Of a stretch of 5,429 nucleotides of DNA, positions 2,901 through 4,951 are shown one piece after another. Source of the stretch: Candidatus Binatia bacterium (GTDB taxonomy: Bacteria; Desulfobacterota_B; Binatia; UBA9968). Positions within the stretch are counted from its first letter, which is position 1. Every line of letters begins with the position of its first letter. Position numbers and translations under genes: made by a program. The DNA is taken from contig JAICHC010000240.1 in the NCBI GenBank assembly GCA_025922795.1, forward strand, positions 1 through 5,429. Reading direction: 5' to 3'. Under the pieces are notes generated by a model. The model saw nothing but the letters and a program-made list of their open reading frames with translations. It did no database searches and had not been told where the DNA came from.

Positions 2901-2934
2901 TCGATTTTGGATTTTGGATGTTGGATTCTCGATT
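2901..2934 (+). repeat. AT-rich TTTTGGATT repeat, copy 3
   Basis: Contains GATTTTGGATTTTGGAT followed by GTTGGATTCTCGATT, in the same orientation as copy 1. It begins 15 bases after the stop codon of the small membrane-protein gene, much as copy 1 begins 17 bases after the oxidase stop. It lies in the intergenic gap before ctaG. The ctaG frame is open through it from an ATG at 2907, but the repeat-encoded residues (MDFGCWILD) look spurious. Confidence 0.7.
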
Positions 2935-2981
2935 TGCTCCGGAGCCGGTGGGAGCGAATCATTGTCGACGGTGTGTCCACG

Positions 2982-3647
2982 ATGAATCCGCGTGGGATGC
3001 AGGACCGGAGCATCAGCCGCTCGCTTTGCTTCTCGCTTGGGGTCGCCATACTCGCGGCGGTCTGGTTAGGACCGCTCCCGCAGCTCGCACGCCAGGCGTT
3101 CTTTGCGCACATGTTGATGCACATGGGCGTCGTCGCGGTGGCCGCGCCGCTCCTGGCGCTTGCGATTGCCGGCGGCCGATTCGACCTTGCACGAAGAGCT
3201 CCGCGGCTGTTCGCGCCGATTCAGGCATCGGTCGTTGAACTTGTGGTCGTGTGGGCTTGGCACTCACCGGGACTGCATCATGCGGCGCGCCACGATATTG
3301 CGATGTTGATCCTGGAGCAGGGGATGTTTTTTATCGCGGGAGTTTTCGTGTGGCTGTCGGCCTTCGGCGGCGATTTTCTGAGCCGCGGGAGTCGGAGCGC
3401 CGCGGGAATCCTGGCGCTGCTCCTCACCGCCATGCACATGACCTTGCTCGGCGCGCTGCTCGCCCTCAGTCCGCGGCCGCTTTATGCGCATATGGAAGGG
3501 TACTCGGAGCTTACAGCTATCGATGATCAACACCTCGGCGGCGCGATCATGCTTCTGATCGGCGGCCTCTCCTATCTTCTTGGCGGTCTCTGGCTGACGG
3601 GTCGTTTGCTGCATGACCCGCTGCTCACACCGCCGGAGCGCGCCTAA
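2982..3647 (+). CDS. ctaG: Cytochrome c oxidase assembly protein, CtaG family (caa3 type)
   Basis: Integral membrane assembly factor of the caa3_CtaG family, involved in maturing the copper centre of haem-copper oxidases. The 221-residue product shows about six membrane segments. Family-like features are a first helix ending WLGPLPQLAR, then FAHMLMHMGVVAVAAPLLAL with closely spaced His and Met residues (H43, H47) that suit copper handling, WAWHSPGLHHAAR, a helix with AMHMTLLGALLALSPRPLY, and DDQHLGGAIMLLIGG near the C-terminus. The frame is open from an ATG at 2907, but the first 25 residues of that version are translated from repeat DNA. I prefer ATG 2982 (MNPRGMQDRS); GTG 2973 and ATG 2997 are alternatives. 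No strong ribosome binding site settles the choice, though GGTGGGAG lies at 2947-2954. The gene's end overlaps the start of the cytochrome gene, which argues for co-translation. Confidence 0.88.
   Translation: MNPRGMQDRSISRSLCFSLGVAILAAVWLGPLPQLARQAFFAHMLMHMGVVAVAAPLLALAIAGGRFDLARRAPRLFAPIQASVVELVVVWAWHSPGLHHAARHDIAMLILEQGMFFIAGVFVWLSAFGGDFLSRGSRSAAGILALLLTAMHMTLLGALLALSPRPLYAHMEGYSELTAIDDQHLGGAIMLLIGGLSYLLGGLWLTGRLLHDPLLTPPERA
3635..3638 (+). promoter_or_regulatory. Ribosome binding site for the triheme cytochrome gene
   Basis: GGAG inside the last codons of ctaG, eight bases before the ATG at 3647. That ATG shares its A with the ctaG stop (TAATG), an arrangement typical of translational coupling. 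It supports the 3647 start over any later in-frame start. Confidence 0.6.
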
Positions 3648-4951
3648 TGCAGCGATTCAGGAGTCTCGTCTTGATCGCCGCATTCTCGGCAGGGGCCGTA
3701 CTCGCGCTGGTTCGACTCTTCGAGAGAGCGGCGACGAGTGGTCGCAATACTCAGAGAGGAAATCAAGGGCGCAATGCAAAGCGCTGGGTATTTAAAATTG
3801 CCGCTTTTCTCCTCGTGGCCGCGTTCGGCGGTTTGTTGTTTGTGACCTCGGGAATCATGCCGATCAAAGCCAGCTCCCGCCACTGGGCGATTACCGCATG
3901 GTTTCTCAACTTTGCCATGCGCCGATCCGTCGTTACCCATTCGCTCGGAACCCGGGTGCCGGCGCTCGACGATGTCGCTCTCGTGGCGAAAGGCGCAACT
4001 CATTACGAATTTGGTTGCCGCCCCTGCCATGGCAGTCCGGATTTCGCGCAGCCGGCTATTGCGCAGAAAATGACGCCGCCCCCCCCTCACCTCCCTTGGG
4101 TCATTCCCCAGTGGCAGGCAAAGGAGCTTTTTTATATCGTCAAGCACGGGGTCAAGTTCACCGGCATGCCGGCGTGGCCGGCGCAGCAGCGCGATGACGA
4201 GGTCTGGGCAGTGGTCGCGTTTCTGCAGAAGCTTCCCAATCTCACGCCGGGACAGTATCAGGAACTCGCGCGCGGTAAGAAAGCCTCCGGCGCGGTTATC
4301 GATGAACTCTCGGGCCCGAACAACCCGCCGCAAGCAGTTGGCGAAAGCTGCGCGCGCTGCCATGGCTTGGATGGCGGCGGCCGAGGGCTGAGCGGTTTTC
4401 CTATACTTGCGGGCCAACGGCCAACCTATCTCTTCGCCTCCCTTCTGGCGTACGCTCGCGGCGAGCGCCACAGCGGAATCATGCAACCCATTGCTGCGGG
4501 ATTAAGCGCCCAAGACATGCGCGAGATCGCCCGTTACTATGCAAATTTAGCGGGGCTATCATCGCCGCGGGCTGTAGGGGCAGGTTTGAAACCTGCCTCT
4601 ACAATTTCCTCGTCGGTTTCCGGGAATCGTCACGATAGGCGGGATGCCTCGGCCATCGAGCGCGGTAGAGAAATCGCGATGCGCGGCATGCCGAGCCAAC
4701 GCCTGCCAGCTTGCGCCGCGTGCCATGGTCCCAGCTCTACTCCTCGCAATCCGATTTATCCCCAGCTTGCCGGACAATATGCGGAGTATCTCGCGCTGCA
4801 GATCACGCTGTTCAAAAAAGGCAGCCGCGGCGGCACGCCTTATGCTCACCTCATGCGCCTGGTTGCAAGCCGGCTGACGCCGGAACAGGTCCATGACGTG
4901 ACGCGGTACTACGCATCGCTCGGTTCGACCACTGAATCGCCCGCGCAGTAA
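3647..4951 (+). CDS. Membrane-anchored triheme cytochrome c
   Basis: Electron-transfer protein of 434 residues with three covalent haem c sites: CRPCH (C124, C127, H128), CARCH (C235, C238, H239) and CAACH (C356, C359, H360). Likely distal ligands are M174 (TGMPAW), M279 (GIMQP) and M403 (HLMR). The first domain resembles a cbb3-type monohaem cytochrome domain (KELFYIVKHGVKFTGMPAW..DDEVWAVVAFL). The second and third resemble paired class I c4/c553-type domains, each ending in a YYA-type motif. An uncleaved anchor near residues 46-69 (KRWVFKIAAFLLVAAF) would place the haems in the periplasm. The 44 residues before it, with another hydrophobic stretch, look like an extension. The linker at residues 310-319 is encoded by a palindromic repeat. 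Coupling to ctaG and operon position suggest it donates electrons to the upstream oxidase, or acts as a subunit of it. No CuA motif is seen, so it is not an ordinary subunit II. An eight-C run lies at 4079-4086 within the frame. Confidence 0.93.
   Translation: MQRFRSLVLIAAFSAGAVLALVRLFERAATSGRNTQRGNQGRNAKRWVFKIAAFLLVAAFGGLLFVTSGIMPIKASSRHWAITAWFLNFAMRRSVVTHSLGTRVPALDDVALVAKGATHYEFGCRPCHGSPDFAQPAIAQKMTPPPPHLPWVIPQWQAKELFYIVKHGVKFTGMPAWPAQQRDDEVWAVVAFLQKLPNLTPGQYQELARGKKASGAVIDELSGPNNPPQAVGESCARCHGLDGGGRGLSGFPILAGQRPTYLFASLLAYARGERHSGIMQPIAAGLSAQDMREIARYYANLAGLSSPRAVGAGLKPASTISSSVSGNRHDRRDASAIERGREIAMRGMPSQRLPACAACHGPSSTPRNPIYPQLAGQYAEYLALQITLFKKGSRGGTPYAHLMRLVASRLTPEQVHDVTRYYASLGSTTESPAQ
4574..4602. 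repeat. 29-base palindromic repeat inside the cytochrome c reading frame
   Basis: Left arm GTAGGGGCAGGTTT, one central G, right arm AAACCTGCCTCTAC. All 14 positions can pair, with one G-U wobble. It is read in frame as VGAGLKPAST (residues 310-319), in the linker between the second and third haem domains. I recognise this outline (gtaggggc..gtttgaaac..gccc..tac) as resembling dispersed palindromic repeats in environmental bacterial genomes, with GAGxKPA as the translated hallmark. That resemblance is from memory and not checked by a search. In RNA it would form a very stable hairpin. Confidence 0.8.

Follow-up and report, generated by a model that had tools for sequence, protein, structure and literature searches.

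A 31-bp palindrome inside the gene of a three-haem cytochrome c is very probably a tolerated in-frame insertion of a double-foot REP, of the type assigned to TnpA-REP subclass 2.4 (RAYT group 4). The case adds to a phenomenon already on record, and the element itself is not of a new kind. The palindrome lies in a 5,429-nucleotide stretch of DNA from a Candidatus Binatia bacterium, all of which was analysed and is referred to here as the window. By analogy with published work on other REPs, a group 4 RAYT would bind and cut the single-stranded hairpin, using the GTAG foot as a guide, and would thereby spread the REP; one copy would then have landed in the inter-haem linker of the cytochrome, adding 10 codons without a stop. 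The insertion would have been close to neutral, tolerated because the linker is freely variable in length and sequence. Domestication of the repeat and ribosome pausing are not needed as explanations. A respiratory cytochrome thus joins the genes known to carry in-frame REPs, as does a biotin ligase whose insert is 86 residues long.

The palindrome and its host gene

The genes of the window lie on the forward strand. A cytochrome c oxidase gene with a COX1 domain (3-2276), cut at its 5' end and with best relatives named subunit I+III, is followed by a gene at 2487-2885, whose small product matches no Pfam family, and by one for a CtaG-like assembly factor (ORF 2907-3647). Next come the host gene (ORF 3647-4951; 434 aa; Pfam Cytochrome_CBB3 and Cytochrom_C) and, from 4959, the beginning of a sodium/calcium exchanger gene. 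The three haem-binding CXXCH motifs of the host protein are encoded at 4016..4030 (residues 124-128), 4349..4363 (residues 235-239) and 4712..4726 (residues 356-360). Among 120 listed relatives of the oxidase subunit, the closest named one is from a Candidatus Binatia MAG (88%), followed by a Gammaproteobacteria MAG (86%), a Pyrinomonadaceae MAG (83%) and another Binatia (82%). The named relatives of the cytochrome, again among 120 listed, include a Polarisedimenticolaceae MAG and a Thermodesulfobacteriota MAG (63% each).

Positions 4574-4602 read GTAGGGGCAGGTTT-G-AAACCTGCCTCTAC, which confirms the near-perfect 29-base palindrome with 14-base arms and one wobble (G-T) pair described in an earlier note on this DNA. 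Pairing reaches one base further on each side, so that the full double-foot REP copy occupies 4573..4603 on the forward strand, with 15-bp arms (4573-4587 and 4589-4603) around G4588. Its 5' GTAG foot, following the REP definition in PMC6006769, lies at 4574..4577 and its 3' CTAC foot, the reverse complement of GTAG, at 4599..4602. Within the GGG that follows GTAG, the first G forms the G-T wobble in the window copy and a G-C pair in the family consensus. Translation of the ORF bears out the in-frame reading, positions 4574..4603 encoding residues 310-319, VGAGLKPAST, with no stop added. The insert separates the second haem domain from the third, in keeping with the linker position first proposed; AlphaFold2 predicts residues 306-327 as coil between helices 288-305 and 328-346, which at a low model confidence (mean pLDDT 48.8) lends weak support to this placement.

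The palindrome is not expected by chance. The RNA fold of 4560-4620 has a free energy of -31.5 kcal/mol (z -6.4), equalled in 0 of 200 shuffles, and hairpin arms in the window (at most one mismatch, loop of at most 5) reach a length of 15, against 14 in the best of 60 Markov shuffles. The 29-mer, with up to 3 mismatches, has a single site on both strands of the window, with a shuffle mean of 0.00 (n=200).

The repeat family and its distribution

The family core is GTAG-GGGC[A/G]GGTTT-N-AAACC[T/C]GCC, and many copies end in a 3' NTAC foot. The exact double-foot pattern was found in 23 viral-contig stretches and the pattern without the 3' foot in 76. The viral sample comprised 127 distinct copies on 76 loci, 99 of them with distinct flanks, and the 24-base core recurs amid many different flanks. 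A 3' foot is present in 66 of the 127 copies (GTAC 33, CTAC 25, TTAC 8), and about half of the viral copies pair to their ends, like the window copy. In blastn searches, the window 30-mer matched 2 plasmid records, and part of the canonical 30-mer matched 2 phage records.

The double-foot pattern is rare. It was present in 2 of 247 genomes in the phylum of an Acidobacteria MAG (at most one mismatch), in none of 398 in the phylum of a Sphingomonas (exact pattern) and in 1 of 112 in the phylum of Nannocystis (exact pattern), this one being the genome labelled G705; such double-foot searches of whole genomes would overlook single-foot relatives. No copy was found in 11 genomes with distant cytochrome homologues (0/11). 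When the single-foot 25-mer was searched with at most one mismatch, G705 gave 57 forward and 60 reverse matches, a total of 117 in which double-foot copies are counted on both strands, and a reversed-pattern control gave 0. An order-level search (96 genomes) found, besides G705, G801 with 2 and 3 matches, and a family-level search (41 genomes) found G705 and G775. From the listed match places in G705, 49 stretches were fetched and 72 copies read. The core was identical in 64 of the 72; only 2 were double-foot and the CTAC foot was absent from 70, so the form counted in G705 is mainly single-foot and not that of the window. Of the mobile or spreading repeat suggested by the earlier note, the dispersal is borne out by the G705 matches and the viral copies, and this GTAG-footed REP family is probably mobile.

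Comparison with known systems

TnpA-REP subclass 2.4, to which RAYT group 4 sequences belong, has canonical long and double-foot REPs of the form GT[AG]G...C[TC]AC; the stem bottom of the canonical long type consists of three consecutive G-C pairs, and REPs occur in frame in tnpA-REP genes, generally between the HUH and Y motifs (PMC6006769). The window copy resembles these double-foot REPs in its 5' GTAG, its 3' CTAC and its long stem, which in the family consensus starts in G-C pairs, and the RAYT associated with the family resembles subclass 2.4 in its NH[IFV]H and WQ motifs and in an in-frame REP between the HUH and Y motifs. The window copy differs from the accessible part of the subclass description (PMC6006769) in lying in a cytochrome c gene, and the related RAYTs differ in mostly carrying YIxxNP (109 of 120 listed) and not the YIxNNP given there (25 of 120).

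GTAG-tagged REPs have also been reported within many diverse genes, with the argument that they may be neutral in flexible linkers or loops (PMC3733652). The window REP is likewise a short GTAG-tagged hairpin within a gene; however, GTAG is unpaired by the superfamily definition in the accessible part of that source and is paired with CTAC in the window, which places the copy outside that definition. In the REPtrons of E. coli and Stenotrophomonas, TnpA-REP recognises and cuts GTAG plus hairpin in vitro, but these belong to TnpA-REP groups 2 and 3 and have GTAG at one side only, as far as the source describes them (PMC8266576). Given the in-frame REPs of subclass 2.4 (PMC6006769) and the REPs in many genes (PMC3733652), insertions of this kind were already known. 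A few targeted searches of the open-access literature met no report of a cytochrome case or of the residue-pair signature described below. The peptides GAGLKPA, GAGFKPA, VGAGLKP and VGAGFKP were not found mentioned in the open-access literature, and the literature matches listed for the DNA word GTAGGGGC looked unrelated.

Rickettsia palindromic elements are palindromic repeats inside protein genes, and the earlier note likened the window palindrome, which also sits inside a protein gene, to them. The likeness did not hold, the element being a GTAG-footed double-foot REP. The window REP differs in its 31-bp length, its GTAG ends and its host, the flanking oxidase having no rickettsial relative among the named ones of the 120 listed. 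RPE-1 is longer, and the superfamily given for RPE-4 and RPE-6 is that of CGTC, not GTAG, in the part of the source available (PMC3733652).

The linker in cytochrome homologues

Of 2711 cytochrome homologues found, the 120 listed were aligned as proteins. The peptide G-A-G-L-K-P-A occurs in two of them, P0001, which is identical to the window protein, and P0004 (73% identical). The other 118 do not have it, among them P0002, the closest relative of those listed (87-90% identical overall), and no homologue with the same residues yet without the palindrome was found among the 120 in this protein-level comparison. The linker of P0004 reads ANLAGLSS-VGAGLKPAPT-NGHDRRDASAIE, and without these ten residues it is 20 aa long, the commonest length (71 of the 120). 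The linker insertion that homologue alignment was expected to reveal is therefore seen as ten extra residues in P0004, but not in the 118 proteins without the peptide, and the protein lengths suggest an insertion of 30 bp. The linker of the window protein is 40 aa and hence holds about 10 residues beyond the REP peptide. The window protein and P0004, although 73% identical overall, have the same VGAGLKPA.

The linker is the most variable part of the protein. By 31-residue block, identity to P0002 is 35% in residues 311-341 and 58% in 280-310, and the 12 remaining blocks lie at 87-100%. In each of the five relatives compared, conservation is lowest in the block of residues 311-341. Compared with P0002, 272 of 287 residues are identical before the insert region and 81 of 86 after it, but only 10/20 and 14/20 in the segments flanking the insert; the corresponding values for P0004 are 210/287 and 62/86, but 14/20 and 17/20. 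From the sequences, local recombination, or loss in the line of P0002, would explain this mosaic around the insert.

Link to RAYT transposases

The loci around Y1_Tnp matches were scanned for the repeat in G001, G006, G094, G176, G775 and G801 (19 loci; L178 and L182 overlap, and L039, L181 and L183 were left out). Only one of the 19, L067 of G094, carries a REP of the family; none was found at the Y1_Tnp loci of G775 or at the one scanned locus of G801 (L181 and L183 being excluded). The Y1_Tnp gene at L067 1441-2049 encodes a 202-aa RAYT with an exact core copy in frame, translated as NVGAGFKPART, between the HUH motif and an FKTFS motif, and it is flanked on both sides by GTAGGGG hairpins that are 2, 4 and 5 bases off the core. 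REPs flanking and in frame within a RAYT of subclass 2.4, as assigned by motifs only, were thus found for the family in G094 rather than in the window's organism. A search of the PDB with this RAYT gave 0 matches to E 0.1.

Among homologues of the L067 RAYT (120 listed of 571 found, a set biased by a query that contains the peptide), 115 have both landmarks, and 101 of these 115 have a loop peptide of the form G-X-G-[LF]-x-P-Y. In 52 Y1_Tnp loci chosen independently of the peptide, for the most part top Pfam matches within their genomes, the HUH motif was found in 10 and the loop peptide in L067 only. In 105 of 114 cases, residues X and Y are a pair expected from palindromic DNA (A-A 84, N-F 8, E-S 7, T-V 5, D-S 1), the best of 10,000 shuffles reaching 82; with X = A left out, 21 of 24 pairs agree and the best shuffle reached 15. 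The nine exceptions are A-D (5) and A-V, E-L, T-A and S-A (once each). This agreement points to the DNA hairpin rather than the peptide being kept, although the proteins are related, so that the pair counts are not independent events. Paired residue changes explained by a DNA palindrome (A-A, E-S, T-V, N-F) offer a protein-level test for REP inserts, and a short GAG[L/F]KPA-like linker in a metagenome protein can stem from a repeat, so that such linkers are not to be taken for conserved protein motifs.

G705, the REP-richest genome found, had no Y1_Tnp match (3 candidates scored), and its 117 REP-core matches are thus an amplification without a visible mobiliser. A different REPtron-like locus was seen in G001 (L040), where six GTAG hairpins, at least five of them sharing a GTAGGTCCCGCC stem, surround another Y1_Tnp match.

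Copies within and between genes

Genes in the fetched G705 DNA were called with a codon-usage gene caller of our own, which gave a coding fraction of 84%. The 72 copies were intergenic in 58 cases, overlapped gene ends in 3 and lay within ORFs in 11; given 84% coding DNA, 14 or fewer non-intergenic copies of 72 have P ~1e-33. Seven of the 11 ORF copies follow a stretch of negative coding score, one is at the first codon and one at the C-terminal end. The remaining two are copies in birA that are flanked by coding signal on either side, weak in one case. The match of this G705 BirA (L169 1988-3061, reverse strand) to a solved BirA (6apw) halts at residue 108 and restarts at 195 (chain residues 168 and 172), and the 86 extra residues, all at one place, hold three REP-like peptides and a duplicated spacer.

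On viral contigs, 50 pairs of a copy and a covering ORF were obtained, many in spurious frames, and 9 ORFs were chosen by eye for testing (L094, a repeat of the L085 gene, was excluded from the count). Seven of the nine matched a known family (L013, L018, L034, L079 minus strand, L081, L085, L109), and two did not (L106, L079 plus strand). The in-frame viral copies include one in a portal protein (PF23899, residues 36-696; REP near 221), those in the terminase large subunits of L018, L034 and L079, and one between the two domains of a glycosyltransferase fusion (L085). Two DUF6582 proteins that are 76% identical carry the REP at different places, near residue 387 in L013 and near 343 in L081. 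Two reading phases are used, giving VGAG[LF]KPA and RGGF[KEQ]TRP, and the third is blocked by the TAG of GTAG. The window copy has 4 of its 6 phases open, against 3 or 4 in the canonical repeat, depending on the loop base; the means for two kinds of shuffle are 4.06 and 4.17. Selection for coding-compatible insertion, as raised in the earlier note, is therefore unsupported, since the G705 copies avoid genes and the open phases are no more numerous than in shuffles, whereas tolerance of such insertions is likely.

Alternative explanations

Linkers rich in A, G, P, S and T are common, and VGAGLKPAST could have evolved as such a linker whose DNA pairs by accident. The shuffle statistics speak against this, and the recurrence of the 24-base core with many different flanks refutes it, leaving a chance or protein-driven palindrome with almost no credence. 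A very improbable alternative is a system like that of Rickettsia, spreading preferentially within genes since its sequence has been selected as translatable. It would account for several in-frame copies in conserved genes, including a RAYT gene, but the predominance of intergenic copies in a G705 sample with mostly coding DNA, the mere two ORF copies with coding signal on both sides, a number of open phases no higher than in shuffles and a phase always closed by the TAG in GTAG all count against it.

It is somewhat less improbable, though still distinctly unlikely, that the repeat has been domesticated, with selection acting either on the ten residues or on the hairpin, in RNA or in DNA, for instance for haem-domain spacing or ribosome pausing. 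The strong RNA hairpin, the VGAGLKPA shared with P0004 and the fact that the single base off the canonical palindrome nonetheless pairs would fit selection. However, P0002 and the great majority of the aligned proteins manage without the insert, it lies in the least conserved block of the protein, and the stretch in common with P0004 looks locally exchanged, which could account for the identity without selection. A tolerated in-frame insertion of a double-foot REP is the reading that we prefer.

A second dispersed repeat

A second dispersed repeat, ATTTTGGATTTTCGATTTTGGATT-like, is present in intergenic gaps of the window at 2289-2325, 2452-2488 and 2901-2935, in part as an inverted pair with a spacing of 126 nt. 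Translated, it gives NPKSKIENPK, which is similar to the same cytochrome linker in sister homologues. Across the 120 listed homologues, the linkers (3130 residues) contain NPK 12 times and the remaining 47615 residues contain it once. The exact 25-mer of the second repeat matched 4 viral-contig stretches.

The linker might be a standing landing site that turns unrelated short repeats into protein, and the REP family may carry a translation filter; this broader idea is rather unlikely. From sequence comparison, two sets of cases read like examples, the double-foot REP in the window protein and P0004, and NPKSKIENPK-like peptides, resembling translations of the second repeat, in P0003, P0005, P0006, P0007, P0011 and P0062. 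Such a filter may be family-wide, given that the genes of group 4 RAYTs carry an in-frame copy of their own REP. If true, the REP family would be a recurrent source of new protein linkers.

On a viral contig (L110), inverted copies of the second repeat lie about 460 nt apart at 7980-8004 and 8443-8467, in a layout like that of the window. In the glycosyltransferase fusion (L085 6484-8451, REP near residue 319), ENPKSKHQ is directly followed by STGGFETRPY, so that the peptides of both repeat families stand side by side in one protein.
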